Source: Mesaphorura yosii (Eukaryota > Arthropoda > Collembola > Poduromorpha > Tullbergiidae). From it: DNA of 64,000 nt. Of the stretch, positions 3,110 through 57,700 are shown in pieces. The notes beneath the pieces were generated by a model that was not told the origin of the DNA, made no database searches, and saw nothing but the letters and a program-made list of their open reading frames with translations. Both the position numbers and the translations under genes were made by a program. The stretch lies in the NCBI GenBank assembly GCA_009869945.1, contig WIXG01000275.1, positions 43,988-107,987 on the forward strand. The letters run 5' to 3'. Numbering within the stretch: position 1 is the first letter of the stretch; every line of letters starts with the position of its first letter.

Positions 3110-6100
3110 ATGCTGCTACGATCTAGAACACCGTCACCTACTAAGAAAACGATTCCAAGAAAAGTGCGCGCATCCACGCGCTCCCCGGCCAAAGCCAACG
3201 GAAACCTTGAACCGGTTTGTGGGTGGAGCGCATGGATCCTTTGGAATTCCGAGTTAAGAAAATGGGTAACAGAAAAGACAGCAGAAATTGGACGCAATCG
3301 AAGAAATGGAGCCACATTGAAGAATGAAGTTGTCAAAGCCTGTTTTGATACAGTATCAAGGTTGGGGAAACTAATACCGCACGATGCTCGATCGGCACAC
3401 TTACTGAATGAGGACCCGCGTTCCTTTATTGTTGTAAGTACGCCATGATGCTAAATCTAAGTTATTGCTTTCAGGAGATTGGCTATAGTAAACCAGATTA
3501 TGGGCTACATTATTAGGTACAAATTGTGGAAGAACCTATTGACTGCAGAGACGAGAAGGATAACATCGTCACCAGAACACCGGTTCAAACTCTATTCACT
3601 TGGGACGATGCAAATGGGGTGGAAACTAGCAGTAACGCCAAGATTTTAAACGTGTATTCGGAGTTGGGCGAGTTATCTCATCTTCTGTTTCGTGTTGGAG
3701 ACATCATCTTGCTGAAGGATTCCGCAACAGTTGGAGATGAACATATTTTAATAAATAATAGCTCACAGGAAAGCAGATGCCAAATTCTGTACCTAATGAA
3801 TCAGGTTAGTCGCTAGGAGAATTTTTCAACACCATTGCCCCTCCAGGTCCACCAAGTCGAAGCTGGGGCGACTTGTGGTGTTTAGTATTAGTAATTAAGT
3901 TCTACCATATTTAGGAGTTGGACGAGCCAGCAGACTTCCGTATACCTTTTGGAACTCAAGAATGGAGTTCTTACTTGCGTGGTTGGGTCAAGTATTTCTA
4001 TGTTACGCCTTTAATTGAGAGGGGCTCACAGCGGTGTACACTATTACGAATCGTCCCGCAGCCACAACTTCGTCAAAGTTTATCAGAAAAGGCACAGCTT
4101 TCGGCGTCGACATCATCAGACGTCAACAAGCAAGTCATTAGTGATCTTGCCGAAACTAGAGCAGCTAGAAAACGCAATACATCGTCCTCCTTGCTAGTCC
4201 ACGATGCTAAGAACCGTGAATCGTTTGTTGCGCCAAATGAAAATGATGCTCCAGGAAACCGCGAAGAGGTTCTTCCGAAGAGACGTAGAATAGAAACAGA
4301 CACTGCAGCTGGTCCGATCGTCGGAAGCGAAGAAATGCAACGAAGTAGTTGTAGTCAAGAAAGTCGAAGCCAAATTGTAAGGGGAAATACTTTGAAGGAA
4401 TTGAAAGATCAATACCGAGCCAGCTTAGCAAGGAAGGCAAAAACCAACATTAACACATCCGTAACGGCCAGTGACAGTGAAGCCGGCTCTCATGCCAATG
4501 CTTTAGACGACAATGCTTTCATCGACTCCGACGGCGATGATGATAACATCACCCTACCTAATGACCCTGATTACGAAGTTGAAGATGGCCAAGAAGACTT
4601 TAACCACTTTGACGAAAATACAAGATCAAGACAAGCGTTTACTAACAGACGGTACTCAAACAGAGTCGACGTTCCCCTCGAAGGCGGCTTTATACGTGAA
4701 AGACTGAACGAGAGCTTCGAAGAACAGATTAATGTGGCCAGCACCCCAAGAAAATTGTGGGCCCAACGAGAAGATTGGCATTCTGGTATGAGACCAAAAC
4801 TTTCTAAAGTAAAGCGGTACGAATACAGAAACTTAGCGGATTTAGAGAACGAGCTCCTCCAAGAAGTAGTGGAAAGAACCGTCAGAAAGCAGCAAAATGT
4901 CTACGGAGTAGTGACTACTGTGAAAGTAAATTTAACAAACTCCCTTTACTTCTACATTACTTTGCCTTAAACTTTACATGTTTATATTTTACAGCACTTG
5001 GAGAAAGGAAACTTCCATACCTTTCTTCTTCGAATCATGGATGATTCGGGAAAGCAGAACGTACTGGTTCGACTCTGTACCACAGACCATGACCCAAAAG
5101 TTGGCCCCAAACCTCACCCAAACGACATAATTCGGATTCATCGCGCATGCGTTCAGTTTGAAGGAGCTGAAATGGTAATTAGTACCGCACCACATCATAA
5201 TTATACTCTATTCAGCTACGAAGACACTTTAATTGCCGAGATCGAGATTGCTACGTCAGCAACTACGATTCACTACACGGGTGAGTTCTTGAGTGTTGAC
5301 TTGACTTCTGAGAATCGACAGACAGCCCCACCAAATGGAGAACTCAACTCGGGTTTTTGATTTCAGACGCTGACAAGAAACGAATAATTGATCTAAGAGG
5401 ATTCATCAAGAGGACAATGGAGGAATCTGGTTTTGAACATTCAATTCAAATAGAGGAGGCTAGCCAGAGTCAAGACGACGACGGACAGTCACACGTAGTT
5501 ACCCATGTTCAAGTTCGCAACCATGAAGTCAATGAAGGTGTTTTAAGTGACGATGATGCTTTACGCGGTCAACAACATGAACCCAGAGGACAGATAGGAA
5601 TGGAGGCTCAAGATCAAGAGAGCGGCAGAAATGAAGAGCCAGTTGAGCCTGAAGATTTGCACAGCTCTGGTGAAGTTATTTCCAATCTGAGTGCAATAAT
5701 TGAATCTGAGATAAGGTGATCCACCGTTAAAATAATTATAAGCTACTCGATGGAATTCATATTAACATTATCTGAACTTCTTTGCGTTTGCAGGACACAA
5801 AGTGAAGGCTTTGGAGGCGAAATAAACTATAATGTGAGATACCCTCTACACAGAAGTATCATCTACGAGACTATGAATCCAGATGGTTGCTGTTTGCTGG
5901 AACAATTAACAAAGGATCAGCCAGAATTCAACATGAAGTTTTGGGTATGAAGCTGACATAAATCAACTTCATAATGCAACGGTGGGTTCAATTTATTACA
6001 GTTTAATTTCACACCTTTGCGCTTTAGATGCTGAAGAGTGACTATAATTCGGAGGATGACATTTACATTGCCCGAGTAGTAGATGGAACTAAATCACAAT

Positions 6101-7108
6101 TTCATCGATTTGTTAAGCTCTCTTCTGAAAATGAAGAGGAAGTGGAAATCAAGCCATACGCTTTGTACGAAAGAACAACGACGCCGGACGCCGCTTGTGT
6201 TTATGCCCCTGTTGTGGACGTAGAAATCAAAAATGTATGTAAGAAATAATGAATATATGAATTCATGGAGTATACTCATTAAAATATGTTTTTCTGTCTT
6301 CTGCCAGCTGTCAAAGAATGAACCTCTGGCGGAAAGCCTTCTGACCGTGGTTATGGCCGGACGTGTTCGCTACGTTATGAAGCACGTCACATTAGTTGAC
6401 CAACCCGGCCCATTTACGAGGAAGTTCAGGAATGTAAAATTAGTGGTTGACGCTTTGAAGACTGAACTGATGAGGTAATGTTTAACTGGCTAAATGTTTT
6501 GGAGCGAATTATTTTCAAGAACTGTATCAATCTAAATTTATAATTGCAGATATGAATCATGTGACAAGTTTACTGACATGGAAATCGGTAGCACCAGAAA
6601 CCAGGCTAAAGCTTCGACTTCCAAAAGTGTCTCATTGCCTCCAGTTGCGGAGCAGCGCAAACGCGACTCCGCTCTTCCTTCGGACGATGACAACACGCGA
6701 AGAACACGATCAAGATCACGCTCACAGCCTAAAACTTCCTCTCAAGACTCGTCAGACAAAACATTAGCCAACAAGCCGACTTCATCGGCTGCGTCAAGCA
6801 GTGACGATGACAGCCAATCGTCTTATTACACAGCTGGCCCTTCAAATTCGCAAAATGAAAGTGGTGGTGTTCAGACACGTGACGAAACAGCTGCTCTGTA
6901 TAATATGGAAGTAGTTGAAGAGGTGGATGAGGACGATCGCTTTCGCATGAGGGCACAAGCAGGAGAGGTAGAAACAATTGCAGGAAGAATTGAAAACATT
7001 CCCGTAGCTAACAATCATGCTGGCCGCCCACCAAAGTCATCCGAAGGGATCTTGAGAAGATCTATGCGTTTATTCAAGCAATGGACTTCTGGGGGCGAAC
7101 ACAAATAG
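3110..7108 (+). CDS. POT1-like telomere-end OB-fold protein, N-terminally extended
   Basis: Predicted single-stranded telomeric DNA-binding protein of 1113 aa, in the nucleus. Nine exons: 3110-3433, 3517-3804, 3915-4925, 4995-5280, 5367-5715, 5794-5944, 6028-6234, 6308-6474 and 6550-7108, all phases closing. Residues about 530-660 look like the first POT1 OB fold (Telo_bind): NVYGVVTTVK, then PNDIIRIHRACVQFE, then a helix with DKKRIIDLRGFIK. These correspond in order to NVYGVV, NGDIVRFHR and the closing helix of POT1. Residues about 755-930 could be OB2 (IYIARVVDGTKSQF). Residues about 100-235 hold another OB-like stretch (FRVGDIILLKD, then EWSSYLRGWVKYF). Acidic and Ser-rich linkers lie at about 390-470 and 940-1030. 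AATAAA is at 7253-7258. The gene model is firm; the POT1 assignment rests on motif resemblance only and I could not run a profile search. Confidence 0.62.
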
Positions 7109-7638: not shown

Positions 7639-8083
7639 ATGTGGTTCGAAATATTGCCCGCTGCGGGGGCTATCTTCACTTGCATGACCCTTGGAATGTG
7701 GGGGTCTGGTGCGGTATGTAAGCTGTTTCTGGGAAAAGTAAGTTCCTTTTCAAGGTTTTGGTTCCTTTCGTAATTCCTTAATACAATTTCAGTTGCGTTT
7801 TGAGTTTATATTACACAATACATGCTGGTGAAGTTATAATTAATTCATTATCTGACCCGTGATTTGCAGTGGTACATGCGTGATCTGAGGAACAACACAA
7901 CGTACCAAGACTATCTAAGAGATGACAGGATTTCTGGCGACCCGTACAAGATTGTGGTAAGTTTCTTCAATTAATTTCGAGAAATAAATAATGCTTATGC
8001 TTTTCACAAAAAACGAATGGTCATTTATTCTGCTCTTACAGGGCTTGGAAGCACTTCCAGATGCAAATGAAACCAGCAAATAA
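7639..8083 (+). CDS. NDUFA1: NADH dehydrogenase (ubiquinone) 1 alpha subcomplex subunit 1 (MWFE)
   Basis: Small one-helix accessory subunit of mitochondrial complex I, needed for assembly of the membrane arm. Exons 7639-7737, 7870-7956 and 8042-8083 encode 75 aa. The protein starts with the diagnostic MWFEILP. A hydrophobic segment follows (about residues 8-30), then the conserved RDDRISG motif near residue 52, matching the RDRRISG of animal NDUFA1. Length is close to the usual 70 aa. An AATAAA at 8199-8204 ends the transcript, only about 35 bp from the AATAAA signals of the convergent protease gene on the other strand. The short exons hide this gene from simple ORF searches. Confidence 0.92.
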
Positions 8084-8646: not shown

Positions 8647-11600
8647 TTAGATCAAATGCTCTCGAGACAAAGTCCTGACGATCCAGTCACCATACCGTCC
8701 AACTCTTGTGAATACTGCGTAGTGCGAGCTTGAGCATTTTCGCTCAGGCCCCTCGGAACCCTCCTCCGGTATCCCGTACGAGACCAGCCCTTGAATGTAC
8801 CATCTTGTAACTCCTTGCACGGTGGCACGAAAATAAATCCCACCGCCAGAGTCACCATTGCAAACACTGCAAAAGCAAATGATAGATAGATTAATAATCA
8901 TTCGCTGCCGGGCTGTCGTACTTGTCATGAAAGTAATGACTTACTTCGTGCCATTCCGGTACCCTGCGCAGAATGTTGTGGATCTCGTTTGTGACCCGAA
9001 GAAGTCTGGGTGCGAATCTGTGCATTCACTGGCGGAGACAACGGGTAACTCTGTCATGCGCAAGCTGCTTGCCAAAGTGCCGTTCTCAGTTAAGCCCCAT
9101 CCGACGACTGTTCCTTTGTTGCCCTGCGCCAACTGATACCTGGAAGAATCATGTATTGAAGTTATTACGCTTTACATATCAAATCGTAGAGAAATCTCAT
9201 GAAATGCTTACTCTTCTAAGAACGAATTGGACGTTTGTGGGTAGCAGGCGGGTCTGACGTAGTAACTCAACACGGCTGGCTTGTCCATTGCTAATATCGC
9301 GATATCAGAGTCAAGCGCTAAATGGTTGAAGGACTCCTCGACGAAGATTTGTGAAATCAGACGCTTTTGGATAAATGGATCCGCATCTGGCAAGTCTGGA
9401 AGAAGAAAATTAAACATGAGGTTCTGTGCGTCATGAGCGTCTATCTAATTCGATATGTCGACATTTTTATATTCTGGCGAACCTCTATTTTGCTTTCCAA
9501 GATACACCGCAAGCGTGGACGCATTTCGGAGGTAGCCACCAGCAATCGTCACACAATGAGCTGATGTCAAAATTGTTTGTTCCGTGATTAGAGAACCGCC
9601 ACAAATATATTTCAGCTCGCCTGCTCAAACGAAATAAATAAGTTGACAGTTAGAAGTGTCCAATGGAGTGGCCTTATCCAAAACTAATTTACTTCCAATC
9701 CAAATGTAGAGCCCCACATGCCATGGCCACTGGCCTCTCATACTAGCCTGACCATTCAAGATGTATGGTGTCTTTGCTCCCTCTGAGACTCCACAATCTG
9801 GTACACACGTAAACTGGTTCTGGACCCCAGGCGACCACTGCCCGTCCTTGTCACACTTCTCGTAGTGCGTGGGCAGATCTCCGGCCGGACGATAATACGG
9901 CGAGCACGTGAACCTCGCTTCAACACCAACTTTTTGAGGCTCGTGACAAGATTTGATCTCTAGGTTCTTTGGATCAATGCATTCAATGTGCACGCCACGC
10001 GTAGGCGTAAGCGGGGTACAACGAGCTTGGAAATCACGAGGAATCAGACCACCAAGCCCATAGCGAACATCAAGAACTGAAAATGGTAGGTTGCAAGCAA
10101 TTAGAAACTTTGCAGACCAAGTCATTTCGATGCAGACTATTCCTAAGTCTTACTTGGTTCACAAGTGGGCGGCGGACTCGTCCAACTTCCGGACCTGGTG
10201 CAAGCTACGGAAATTGGTCCATTCAGCAAATAGCCAGCGCTGCATTCAAAAATCACTTGCGCTCCGTAAGGCACTGTGGTTGTATTCCTTTGACAGTATT
10301 CTGCATCCGGATTCGATCGGCATGACGTAATTGTCGCGATTGCATTTCTCGGGACTTTCGGAAGAGTGCAATTGCGAATCGAATTCAACTTCTCGAAACT
10401 GCGTTGAATATTGTCGAGACCCACGATGGCAGGCTTTCCTTGTCGGTGTGGAGGAAGAACCGTTGGCGCATCCACATCACCTTGAGACGAGGTCGCAGTG
10501 CTCGGAAGTGTGAAATGTGTTGCATTTTCGGGATCCTCCGAAATGTCAGGCTGAGTGAAAAGCTGTGAATTGCTGCTGCTCGTGCTTGTACGGCTTTGTT
10601 CTTCTGCTGCGTCAATAATCTCGTATCGCGGTGAGTTCGTCGTCGCTCTGTTTTCTGACTGTGATGCTGAAATTGGTGCAAGCGTGGGTCTTCGAGTCAG
10701 AGACAACATCGATTTGATTGGCTGATAACTCTCGAACACAAACTGATCTCCGTCATCGCGTCCATTGCGTACTGATTCGCTAAGCTCTTGCGCCCTGTCC
10801 CACATCACCTGCATACGTGCCCGGGTTATCAAACAGAGTTCGGGAACTTCGTCCGAACCATCTGCGCAATTCTTCCAGTTGTCACAACTGGAAAGAATTT
10901 CAAATTCTTCAGTATGGTTTTCATGATCATTCAACAATGCGACCAAGCAATGAGCTTACATTTTCCGTTCCGAAATACATCCTCCATATTTGCACATGAA
11001 CTGATTCGGCCCACATCTTCGTTTACGACAAACGTCCGTAGTCTCATCGGATCCTGCGCCCAATGTTTTTATGAACGAATTAGTACGGGTGGGAATTTAT
11101 GAGATGAATTTTCCACAACATACCGTCTGGACAGTGAATTCTTCCATCACAGAGCTTAAAGTCGGGAATACAGGCTCCGTATTTACAGCGAAATTGACCT
11201 GGGAGGCAACTAGAATGAAAAACAATAAATTGTTGACAAGCCTCCTCAACAGCTTGAGGTGTCTTTCCAAGAAACCGCAAAGATTCTATTCCATTAATTA
11301 CCTGTTCCCACCGCAAATGTGTTCTGACTCATCACTTCCATCGAGGCTATAAATTACGAGAAGATTCGCTTGGTTAAGTCTTACTGTTATGAGGTTATGC
11401 AAATGAAGCGGTCGAGACTAATTTATTGCAATTGCTCACCAATTGATGGCTCCATCGCATACTCGGGAAATTGGAATACACCCTCCGTACTGGCATTGGA
11501 AGACGCCCACTTTCTTAACTACGCTCGCGCTGCAATTAAGAATGAGAACATGGAGTATGCCATTAAAATACGTACATCGAGGCTAGGCACTCGTGTTACG

Positions 11601-22099: not shown

Positions 22100-37214
<15,115 letters not shown>

Positions 37215-42221: not shown

Positions 42222-45200
42222 TTAACCAATCCAAGAATCAAACACTTTCCACCAGCCCCTACTTGCTGGAAAGCGTCTATCGTGACGATTCGTTGCAGTA
42301 GTAGTAGTAGAAGGAATGCTACTCGTCCTAGACGTAGTTGTCGGGAATAAGTTACCTGATTCAGCAGACACATCATCCATGTAGTCTGCTACGGAGTTGG
42401 AGTTACCAACATTTACGTTTACATTATTATTGTTATTGTTTCGCATCGCAGATGTGCCCAGGGCATCACAGCCGTACCACCAATTCTCCGTGAGGCGTGG
42501 GAAAGGAGGGTCAGTCTGGTCAACCTGCAAGTAGAAAAATAGATTTGCAAAATGTGTAATGCGCATCAATCGAAGTGCCCGGAATCCGGGGCGCGGTCTG
42601 ACGGGAAAACAACTTTAAGATCTTCTCCGAAATCCGGTGGAGTTTTGTGCGGAAACGCTTCCAAGTAAAGTTACAACGCTTCCAAATTTTTCGTACTAAA
42701 CCTACCTTTGTCTACACCTATTCACCAGTGAGTCGGCATTGTCAAGAGCGTGTCTAAGGCTCCGGCTACGCCCTTAGAGTAGGCAACTAATTACTACGTA
42801 CTATCAATGGCTACGCCGGTCTCACGAACCGGGTCCGCCTACGGCGGCCCGTTTCGTGTGAACGCATCGTACGCTCGCTTCGCGCGGAACTGAACCTAGC
42901 CTGGCTAAATTAGTCAAACAGTTAAAGGTAAACGTCAACCTATTCACACCCAGCTCACAATCAACAGGATTGAAATCATTGCTTGCAGAAAACTGAGTAT
43001 CAGAATATTGGGAGCGCTGTAACTTTACTTGGTTGCGTTTCCGCACAAAAACTCCACCGGATTCAGACTCAGCATGGTCGAGTTAGTTTGGAATCGCTGG
43101 TTTCAGATATTTTCGGAGAAGACCTTAAAGTAAAGTCTAGCTGATCCGACTTACAGCGAAGGCTCTGTCGTTAAATCGCCAATATTTGTTGTCCTTGAAG
43201 AAGTACGTGAATCCGTTGTTGTAACGGAGCGCACCATCCAAATTGTTTGGAATTCCCTCCCAGTTTGAGATTGGTTTGGGATACCCGGGAGTGACCGGTG
43301 GACGACGAGAGGGGTCAAACCTCCAGTACTTGTCGCCCTTGAAGAAGTAGATTTTGCCGTTTCCTCCCCACACGAACGCAGCTGCAAGATAAGAACATGA
43401 GTAATGACGATTATTGGTTGAAACGAACATGATTACGCCTGTAATGTGTGTCTGCTTCACATACCGTCGAGATTAGGTGGAATTCCTTCGAACCCATCAT
43501 TGATATCTTTTGGATAGCCCGGGTCCATTGCCATATTCGTGAATCGCCAGTATTGAGATCCCTACGCATAGAAGAGACGAGACGCGCACCTAGTTAGCAC
43601 ATCTGTATGCTTTTAAAGAAATGTTGCGAACTTGCCGACTCCGAGCTTCTCAAAGTGATTTACCTTGAAAAAATAAGTTCTGTCGTTTGTCCAGGTGAAT
43701 GCTGCGTCCAGATTTGACGGGAGTCCATCGAAGTTCGATATTTTGCGTGGGTATCCGTCTTCAATGCCCGTATCGCTCAGCTTGTAGAATTCGTCACCTG
43801 TCGAAGACCCCAAATTATTCAGCACTGATATTTCTTTTCAAGGGTACTAGCTGACTCTACCAGCGATTTATCGCTGGCCTTAGAATTATCCCTGCAACAA
43901 CAAGAACTAGGACTACAGAACTCCGACAACTTGAAATTTGAATTAACTCCCAACTACAAGTTTCTAGGAACGGAGAGGCACGCTAAGGGTTTTAAGCTTT
44001 ATGTGTGGCTTGCCTCTTCGTTCAGTTTCAAGTTGAGAGTTCTTGTTGTTGCAGGGATAATTCTAAGGCCAGCGATAAGTCGCTGGTAGAGTCAGCTAGT
44101 ATGAAATTGAAGGAAGCAAGATATGAAGAGTGCAAGTTCTCTCGGCGAGGGGAAGTGTGAACCGGACAACGTGACTCAATTTCACGGAAATTATAAGAGT
44201 GAGATGAGACGGGAGGAATAGAAGAATTTCTCAGGAAACAATGCTCTGGGAACAATTTGCCGAGAACAATTCTCTGGAAACAATTTGTACGAAAACGGTC
44301 CTCTTTGTATTTTACGGCTAATTTGCAGTGAAAACATAGCTTGGAATTAAGATTGGTATTTTCAACAAATACTCTGCAACTAGTACCTTTGAATACATAC
44401 GTGGCTCCATCGGCCATGACTGTAATAGCATCCAGTCTTGGGTCGGAACACAGCTTGACCTTCGCCGGCTTTGGTGGCGCCGGAGTTACTCTGGAGCCTC
44501 CTCCATTGTTGCTGGAAGTGGGTCTTCGCGTTGTTGTGGTTCTTCGAGTTGTGGTGGTGGGCAATCTCTGTAGCTCTTTCTTCCCGTACAATGACTGCAA
44601 AAAAATCCAATTGAGAACTGTTCTACCAAGGTCAGAGTGTTGTTAATTTAGGTGATCATACTTGGATTGCAAGAACGTCATCTTCATGCAACTTGAAGGA
44701 CGGTTGGTAGCCCCTATAAAAGGGAGCCATGAGCGCTCCAGACACATCAGAATGTGAGAGACCCAGTGAATGTCCAAACTCGTGAGCAGCCACTTGAAAC
44801 AGATTTGTTCCGCGGAATGAACCAATACTCCACCTCTCTTCATCGTCGAAATGAGCATCGCCGCCGTAGACAGGGAAGTAGGCGTGCGCCAGTGTTCCAC
44901 CTTCTCCGTCGAACGCGTCTCCATCTCCGTGCTCCTTCCGCTCGAACCGGATCTCGATATTAGTTTTCGAGACGCCGGGCCCAGCTGGACGGAATGTGAG
45001 GTTGGTGTAGCGAGACCAGACGCTGAACGCGTCCTGCATTTCTTTGTCAACCTCGCCACGGTCCAGCAGGCTGGGGTACTTGGTCACTTTGTATGTCAGG
45101 TCTCTGACCCTCCATCGCGATCCTGCAGGGCAAGCGAACTAAAAATGAGAACATTCAGGCGTGCAAAAGACGGCAATGCAGTGTGTAATGAGTGATGAAC

Positions 45201-54752: not shown

Positions 54753-57700
54753 ATGGGTTCGTCACTTTTCCTCCTGCTGCTTTTGTACGAATCCTTGTCC
54801 GTGGCGGTGCACGCGTTCGACCTGCTGGGACGGGCCCAGGTGCTTGGAGTGAATGAGGGGCCGTGCGGGGCACTCGAATTCACAGAGAGGGCCAGAGTCC
54901 ATGTCAACACCGCCGAGATCTTCCCAGGTAACTCGCGCCCGCGTGATTGATTCCCTCACAAAAACTTTGTTAACTCACTTTCCCATTCGCAGATTACTTT
55001 CCACTCGACTTTTCAATAATCACCAAGCTGCGCCTGCACTCGAACTCGGCTCTGGTCACAGTGTACAATGATCTTGGGGACGAGGAGCTCTTTATAGTGG
55101 TTGGCGAGGAGGTCACGGTTGGATACCGAAATCAGAGAATCGTGCGATTCAATGGGAACTTTTCGGATGGAGAGTGCGTGCAATGTCTCAAACACTTCTA
55201 CGCCCTACCCTTGCATTGCGTGTGAATTCGAACATAATTTGTATTTTCAGGTGGCACCACCTGGCCATCGCTTTTAAGGGCGAGACGCTGACGGCTCTTG
55301 TCGACTGCGTCGCGATCGGAACCGCACCAATGCCAAACAGGACTCAACTCTCGAATAATGGCGTGCTGGTGGTCGGAAGGCAGCTTGAGAGCGAACTCGG
55401 ATTCAATGGCGACGTGCAACGGATGGTGATTCTGGACGGGGTTGAAGAGGCGTTTGAGGGCGGCTGTGACTACATAATTGTGTGCGACGAGCACGAGCCA
55501 GAGTTACCCGAGTTCAAGAATTCGACAGTGACGATCGAGTTTCCGAACGGAGCGTACGGAGACGTCGGACAGCAGGAACAACACGGATTACATTTGCTTC
55601 GAGGACCACAAGGACCACGTAATAAATTGCTATTAAATTCTCATTCTTCAAATGACATTAAAATAATCATTTTTCAAATCTTAGGTGGATACACCGGACC
55701 ACCTGGCCCACCAGGTTCAACTTGTTTATACCATGAAAACTTTGCCTGACGTGCAGAATATTTTTTTAAAATGGTTCAATTAACAGGAGAGAAAGGAGAC
55801 AGAGGCGAGAGTGGCCGAAACGGGCTCGACGGCATAGTTGGAGTTGCCGGTCCACCTGGGCATGTGTTTATGATTCCATTAACTAGTCAAGGAGAAGGCA
55901 GCGGCTCAAAGGGACCGGACGCCACTGCGGAGGCGCTTAGACAAATGCTTGGGCAGCACATGGTGAGTGAGTGCGATGTCACTTTAGCATTTGGCGTGTT
56001 TGACCAGCGACCACGATTCTGCAATTGCAGATGGCAATGCAAGGACCTCCTGGCCCCACAGGACTCACAGGTTTTCATACTTGCTACTGAATGTTAATTC
56101 TTGCTTTGTTAAGCATGATTTGTTGACATAACCAATCAATCATTGTAGGGCTTCCTGGTCCGGTCGGGCCGAGTGGAGATCAAGGACCAAAGGGAGAAAC
56201 CGGCGAGATGGGCGAACCTGGACCCAGGGGCCACCGTGGAGAGCTCGGACCGAGCGGCCGCGATGGGAGACGCGGGCGGCCTGGAAGAGACGGTGAACGC
56301 GGCTTGAGTGGACCGCCAGGTTAGAAGAATAGCTCTTTTTGTCTGAAGCAACGCCTGAATGCAGCATGCTAATTATAGGAGAAAAAGGAGACCAAGGCCC
56401 CATCGGCATTCCAGGTTCAAACTTAGTACCTACTTTTTCAACCTACTTTGGATTAATGTCACTTTTACCTTGACTTTTACGAATCAATCAAGGTTTGCCT
56501 GGCGAGAAGGGTGACCGGGGAGAGAAAGGAGCGCCAGGTAAAATCAGGCATTGAAAAATACTTCAGTTTACTAATTGTTACTATTTTTAGGAGTCAAAGG
56601 TGCTCCAGGACATGACGGAGCCCAAGGTGAGTATCGCCTGAAAATCAGAAGGGTGAATGCCTGGAAAGCAATCGTTTATCCGAATACCATTAGTTGACGC
56701 GTTGCTTCTTGCGTAGGTGATGATGGAGCTCCTGGTCTCGTTGGCCCAGCTGGAGAAATGGTGAGTGAATTTCGACTGCCATGTATTTCAATGTATATAG
56801 ATTTAAGACGAATCTTTACGCAGGGCCCGAGAGGTTTTCCCGGTCCGCGCGGGTACGTGCTACTGATTGAAAATTCGGGTGTCATCAGTTATTGCTTTTG
56901 AGCCAGTCAGTTTACTTGTAGAGTTGAACATCAATTACAGGTTTCCGGGACTGAGTGGGCCACCTGGAATTCCTGGCAGCGAAGGGCCGCCCGGCCAGAA
57001 AGGTTTGCAACTTATTTATTGAGCTGACCCATTGTCGACAATAAACTCTGAACTAAATTGAATTGTAGGAAGTATTGGAGCGTCCGGATCACCAGGAGCA
57101 CCCGGCCAAACCGGGCCTGTCGGTACGCCACTGCGCTTGGGTGTTCGCTGTTTTAATTCTTGGGCTTTGATGAGCACTTTATCGAATGATTGATTCTTGC
57201 AGGCCCAATTGGCCCAATCGGATTTCCCGGCGCTATTGGCCCCCCAGGGCCGATTGGACCTCAGGGCAAGCCAGGTAACCAATAAAATCAACTGAGCAAA
57301 AAGTTAAAATGTTGGTTAACTTAAAAGGTCTGATTATTAATATTAATCTTGATGCCTACAGGATCTACGGGCTTGCCGGGTGCAGATGGAATGCCAGGCC
57401 ACAATGGAAACCCTGGAGTGGCTGGGGCGAAAGGCGACACGGGACCGAAGGGCCCACAAGTAGTTTGAGAATATTAGTTTGGTCATATGCTTGTGAGAAT
57501 ATCCTCAAATGAGATTGCGAAACGTGAATTGCAGGGCCCCGTTGGATTTCCCGGTCCCCGAGGAGTAAAGGGCGACGAGGGCAAGCGTGGAATCGGTGGC
57601 GAAAAGGGCGACAAGGGAGAACGCGGGTAAGATTTACTTTTGACATTGTGAATTTTAATTTGGTTCATGCGCAAATATATTGCGGTGTTGTACAGGCCAG

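Follow-up and report, generated by a model that had tools for sequence, protein, structure and literature searches.

OB folds ahead of the first DNA-binding domain are a described part of POT1 architecture. According to the account in PMC9119445, which cites Myler et al. 2021, most metazoan POT1s carry such a domain (OB-N), as do most basidiomycete Pot1s, and OB3 contains zinc-binding motifs in metazoans and basidiomycetes. The OB-N of Ustilago Pot1 is described there as participating in Rad51 binding and as lacking DNA binding (PMC9119445). The link between the next two domains varies: in human POT1, OB1 and OB2 are separated by a few residues and work as a single unit (PMC8853558), whereas in yeast Pot1 they are joined by a loop of 23-25 residues and are able to act independently (PMC9333443). 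Among arthropods, a homologue of POT1 has been named in Daphnia (2015; PMC4427308), and a survey that used BLAST with distant queries reported no shelterin genes in six insects, two of them aphids, or in two mites (PMC4296714). POT1 is also reported to be absent from two tardigrades (PMC6797769). With shelterin genes reportedly missing from several insects and mites (PMC4296714), every POT1 from an arthropod is of use in dating the rebuilding of end protection.

The window analysed here, a stretch of 64,000 nucleotides, contains a POT1-like gene on the plus strand at 3110-7108, with nine exons; its eight introns measure 69-110 bases and are of the GT-AG type throughout. The gene begins with an ATG at 3110 and ends with a TAG stop codon at 7106-7108, exactly the span given by a sequence-only reading of this DNA. 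The predicted product of 1113 amino acids is encoded in a single continuous frame across the nine exons, which agrees with the one gene proposed in that reading and leads us to reject two separate genes at the locus. This frame is the sole stop-free frame in all nine exons, and the other frames contain 2-28 stops per exon. Codon bias is too weak to tell the reading frames of the gene apart, and the evidence for the model therefore comes from its splice sites and open frames. Upstream, the frame of an ABC transporter gene (PF06472, 243.5 bits) ends at 2614, as judged by eye, and downstream the gene for MWFE/NDUFA1 starts at 7639, also by eye, with a Pfam score above the cut-off, so that the POT1-like gene is boxed in. 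The motifs quoted in the sequence-only reading are all present in the product: VGDIILLKD at residues 168-176, EWSSYLRGWVKYF at 220-232, NVYGVV at 532-537, NDIIRIHR at 584-591, and VVDGT at 820-824. The features of the window are as follows.

3110..3433, plus strand: exon 1, residues 1-108, including the basic N terminus plus a helix-like stretch; GT donor, stops in all other frames
3422..3801, plus strand: putative OB-N, residues ~105-203, with the intron 3434-3516 inside; from the OB1 profile, boundaries by eye
3517..3804, plus strand: exon 2, residues 109-204, with the bulk of the putative OB-N core; flanked by an AG acceptor and a GT donor, stops in all other frames
3915..4925, plus strand: exon 3, residues 205-541, a 1011-base open frame with the end of the N-terminal globular region, a long polar linker, and the start of OB1
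4896..5416, plus strand: OB1, residues 532-653, with introns 4926-4994 and 5281-5366 inside; from Pfam, the human POT1 match, and shuffles
4995..5280, plus strand: exon 4, residues 542-637 (part), which make up the body of OB1; stops in all other frames
5367..5715, plus strand: exon 5, last part of OB1 followed by the acidic linker
5794..5944, plus strand: exon 6, end of the linker and beginning of the OB2-like block
5885..6474, plus strand: OB2-like region, residues ~784-928, with introns inside; from Smith-Waterman, profile, and block test
6028..6234, plus strand: exon 7, VVDGT-bearing part of the OB2-like block
6308..6474, plus strand: exon 8, final part of the OB2-like block
6550..7108, plus strand: exon 9, residues 929-1113, Ser/Asp/Arg-rich tail and stop, without an OB3 signature
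7639-8083, plus strand: small three-exon gene for MWFE/NDUFA1, a complex I subunit; PF15879, 32.8 bits
35901-36392, minus strand: potassium channel exon; Pfam
44656-45138, minus strand: matrixin metalloprotease exon; Pfam
55072-55749, plus strand: laminin-G/collagen-like exon; Pfam

Elsewhere on the minus strand of the window, 8650-11330 probably encodes a serine protease that includes Sushi and LDL-receptor-like segments; its Sushi match at 9625-10149 scores 20.4 bits, slightly below the cut-off of 20.7. GMC oxidoreductase-like open stretches occupy 24141-32605 on the same strand, where 31913-32605 scored 152.3 bits with PF00732 and the others were recognized by eye. No Rfam family reached its gathering score in the window.

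By sequence homology, residues 532-653 of the POT1-like protein are a POT1-type first OB fold (OB1). As a fragment of residues ~528-647, this region matches Pfam PF02765 (POT1) with 24.3 bits and E 3e-5 over positions 11-136 of the 140-position profile. A shorter OB1 cut scores 24.0 bits, and OB1 joined to the OB2 piece scores 21.7 bits, all below the gathering cut-off of 29 bits. The whole 1113-residue protein matched no Pfam family, and OB1 matched none in NCBIfam. The PF02765 check suggested with the sequence-only reading gives a significant match for the OB1 fragment, at a score below the cut-off, and none for the entire protein. In BLASTP, OB1 and human POT1 are identical at 38 of 129 positions (29%), with E 5e-8 for that single comparison, and the alignment spans the first strand to the closing helix. 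The same pair gives a Smith-Waterman z of 13.0, with none of 1000 shuffles as good, and an hhalign probability of 82 (E 1.1e-5). A profile of human and yeast OB1 scores 7.2 bits on this region, as good in 1 of 2000 shuffles and in none of 99 other ORF pieces; these comparison pieces are the other ORFs of the window, most of which are probably not genes. A PDB sequence search with the whole protein, with E up to 10, returned three distinct sequences, all of them human POT1 at residues 532-653 with E 0.16. Pairwise Smith-Waterman comparison with fission yeast OB1 gave no match (z 0.8, 210/1000 shuffles as good), and human and yeast OB1 matched each other (z 19.5). The fragment E value, the BLASTP match, and the shuffles uphold the proposal of a POT1-type OB1 in the C-terminal half of the protein. 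An exon-by-exon genome search with PF02765 returned no matches and means little, because the gene is present in the assembly and yet went undetected. In viral contigs, no relatives were confirmed by tblastn with residues 1-265 and 532-659 as queries.

Ahead of OB1 lies an extension of ~530 residues, of which 255 are linker. In its N-terminal part, residues ~105-203 are a probable but unproven OB fold. The profile of human and yeast OB1 scored 3.0 bits on residues 95-265, with the match at 131-175, and was equalled in 14 of 2000 shuffles and by 1 of the 99 other ORF pieces, a chance level of ~1%, which makes the extra OB fold of the sequence-only reading probable. The matching segment reads VQTLFTWDDANG...VGDIILLK and runs from the second strand through the third strand and a helix to the fourth strand, with the names assigned by eye. 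Smith-Waterman comparison with yeast OB1 selected the same place (residues 127-174; 3/1000 shuffles), and the best local match to human OB1 fell at residues 227-257 (1/1000 shuffles), so that the registers disagree. Pfam gave nothing above noise for the N-terminal piece. The PDB sequence search with this block returned a sigma factor at E 0.91 and a designed repeat protein at E 0.0006, the latter rejected as repeat inflation since no single stretch passes alone. Structure prediction, another check suggested earlier, was applied to single exons, and the AlphaFold models of exon 2 (pLDDT 49.8) and of exon 4, the body of OB1 (pLDDT 48.4), were both poor; Foldseek returned 304 and 277 matches for the two models up to E 10 and none at E 0.001 or better. 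The poor model of exon 2 is no evidence against OB-N, because exon 4 belongs to the well-supported OB1 and is modelled equally poorly.

The block at residues ~784-928 is a candidate OB2, an assignment with less support than that of the N-terminal OB fold. It contains DDIYIARVVDGTKSQF, which resembles FLLKVWDGTRTPF of human POT1, and its Smith-Waterman match to human OB2 was equalled by 16 of 1000 shuffles. The two-sequence profile of human and yeast OB2 scored 1.6 bits, as good in 67/2000 shuffles and 3/99 ORF pieces. In a post hoc test, for which the block was picked after looking, the human comparison gave 1/120 and the pombe comparison 7/120, with both OB2s placed at 784-828. Smith-Waterman, hhalign, and a three-way MAFFT alignment pick other registers, and MAFFT does not pair VVDGT with human VWDGT. 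Thus, the VVDGT stretch described in the sequence-only reading is there, but the OB2 signal around it is weak, at a chance level of ~2-4%, and its register is unstable. The OB2 block found no match in the PDB sequence search up to E 10, and Pfam gave nothing above noise for the OB2 and tail pieces; matches to EthR_C (E 0.045-0.054) and Vir1p (E 6.7) were rejected as chance. Human and yeast OB2 themselves reach only z 4.8 in Smith-Waterman, and in the PDB sequence search the match between human and yeast POT1 is confined to OB1. A silent OB2 is therefore expected at such a distance. The spacer between OB1 and the OB2-like block is ~130 residues long and acidic, with 28 D/E and 7 K/R in residues 656-784.

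In human POT1, OB3 carries the HJR insert that binds TPP1. This TPP1-binding end of POT1 seems to be gone from the predicted protein, because the tail gives no OB3 signal, there is no CxxC motif, and little room is left before 7639. Residues 930-1113 are rich in Ser, Asp, and Arg and are 5-10% hydrophobic in 40-residue windows starting at 941-1001. The OB3 profile gave no signal in this tail or in the block at 750-935, and on the OB2-like block it scored -2.5 bits, with 1210 of 1438 scored shuffles as good or better. None of the 12 cysteines in the 1113 residues forms a CxxC zinc motif. Between 7109 and 7639, no plus-strand open stretch exceeds 47 codons, and the human OB3 region found no match in the genome search. 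We therefore do not file the protein as a complete four-OB POT1. Genome search also returned no TPP1, in a type of search that cannot show absence. If OB3 is missing, TPP1 would be held in some other way or not at all. The apparent lack of OB3 and the wide separation of OB1 and OB2, neither remarked on in the sequence-only reading, seem to be the real departures from a textbook POT1.

The assembly, which comprises 93,006,257 bases in 1127 contigs, contains 40 occurrences of five-fold TTAGG (overlaps counted) on 12 contigs, and the reversed control occurs nowhere. One array of 17 repeats reaches the last base of contig C1051, and the other arrays are internal. The RNA-binding domain of TERT was also found (PF12009, 58.2 bits, above the cut-off). 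With TTAGG arrays and TERT in the genome, a POT1 has a substrate. The tardigrade-type repeat GATGGGTTTT does not occur in the assembly; its absence and the presence of TTAGG are a better fit to an arthropod than to a Hypsibius-type tardigrade. A search of the assembly for COX1 came back empty. Among the best candidates scored, the POT1-like protein had no second copy. On contig C900, short TTAGG arrays (L005-L008; 3302, 4779, 8888) are spaced ~0.4-4 kb apart, which suggests that the telomere repeats there form part of some larger repeat or of end-targeted elements. The TERT domain (L017:1-1962) lies within a long open frame in which ~500 residues precede it; this N-terminal stretch is unusually long, and not all of it need be TERT.

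With the gene structure, OB1 homology, TTAGG arrays, and TERT established, we infer, at a probability of about 0.77, that the gene encodes the POT1 of a TTAGG- and TERT-bearing animal of arthropod type, with OB1 and the OB2-like domain binding the overhang. In this process, the G-rich single strand at the telomere end would be bound by OB1, with help from the OB2-like domain, and so be hidden from the DNA-damage response. By analogy with its fungal counterpart, the predicted OB-N could be a protein-binding module, and the disordered linkers and tail could carry additional contacts. Independent action of OB1 and OB2 is a natural reading of the acidic spacer at 656-784, given the yeast loop as compared with the human linker. 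A bolder version of this reading, possible but tentative, is that the protein has kept the DNA-binding half and the ancestral OB-N and discarded OB3, its TPP1 dock, with recruitment by OB-N and the disordered tail. OB1 and OB2 would then be two beads on an acidic string, each gripping TTAGG overhangs independently. If so, POT1 would have shed its tie to TPP1 in an animal that retains telomerase and TTAGG repeats, giving a shelterin-independent or rewired POT1 that may be intermediate between canonical shelterin and the caps without POT1 that are reported for insects.

Other readings differ in how they treat the domains after OB1. Nematode single-OB POT1-like proteins hold DNA with one OB fold. 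The protein here could likewise be a relative of POT1 that has OB-N and holds DNA with OB1 alone, residues 784-928 being either what is left of OB3 or a beta domain of unrelated origin. The weak OB2 support and unstable register leave room for such an arrangement, a spacer of ~130 residues would break up the tight human OB1-OB2 unit, and the His-Gly motif of yeast OB2 (PMC9333443), HGG in human POT1, reads DQPG here by eye. However, of the three OB profiles tried, that of OB2 gives the block its highest score (1.6 bits, as compared with -2.5 bits for OB3), and its Smith-Waterman match to human OB2 is equalled by 16/1000 shuffles as opposed to 386/1000 for the human OB3 region, and we regard this arrangement as unlikely. 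An OB3 that is present but missed through an assembly fault or unusual splicing appears somewhat less probable again: the genome is a draft in 1127 contigs and the gene model derives from DNA sequence alone, but the ABC transporter gene closes the upstream side at 2614, and downstream the longest plus-strand open stretch before MWFE/NDUFA1 is 47 codons.

A further reading makes the protein a non-telomeric member of another OB-fold group (RPA-like, CTC1-like, or meiotic single-strand binding) that resembles POT1 in OB1. OB folds converge, and the missing OB3 and lack of a detectable TPP1 would suit such a protein. In contrast, the single-domain matches in Pfam and the PDB name POT1, the OB1 alignment runs from the first strand to the closing helix, and none of the other single-strand binding families in Pfam scored with the whole protein or its fragments, which makes this origin very improbable.

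The published record changes what is new about this protein. The sequence-only reading presented the added OB fold as a new variant of end protection, but OB-N is already reported for most metazoan POT1s (PMC9119445), and human POT1 (634 amino acids, no OB-N), its yardstick, is the exceptional form. Its premise that the insects studied largely lack POT1 agrees with the BLAST survey of several insects (PMC4296714), whereas an arthropod POT1 is not unprecedented, and a 'first arthropod POT1' is ruled out, given the named Daphnia homologue (PMC4427308). Loss of OB3, if confirmed, is what would set the protein apart as a new variant.

Compared with human POT1, the protein shares an OB1 that is 29% identical over 129 columns, but the human protein lacks OB-N, has a short OB1-OB2 linker, and contains OB3. 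Schizosaccharomyces pombe Pot1 also lacks OB-N and has OB3, and its OB1 is unmatched pairwise; it resembles the present protein, where OB2 is putative, in that OB1 and OB2 lie apart, joined in the yeast protein by a flexible loop that lets them bind as independent modules (PMC9333443). In Ustilago maydis and other basidiomycete Pot1s, OB-N lies far ahead of OB1, by ~200-350 residues (PMC9119445), as does the putative OB-N in the ~530-residue extension here, but those proteins keep OB3 and belong to a fungal lineage. The Daphnia homologue is likewise an arthropod POT1 that occurs alongside TTAGG telomeres and TERT (PMC4427308). Metazoan POT1s with OB-N differ from the present protein in its long acidic spacer and its lack of a recognizable OB3 or zinc cysteines, and share with it a probable OB fold before OB1, a homologous OB1, and an OB2-like domain after it. 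The order of OB-N, long linker, OB1, and OB2 agrees with the arrangement described in PMC9119445, and the putative OB-N here would be an arthropod-type case of an ancestral layout that is already known.
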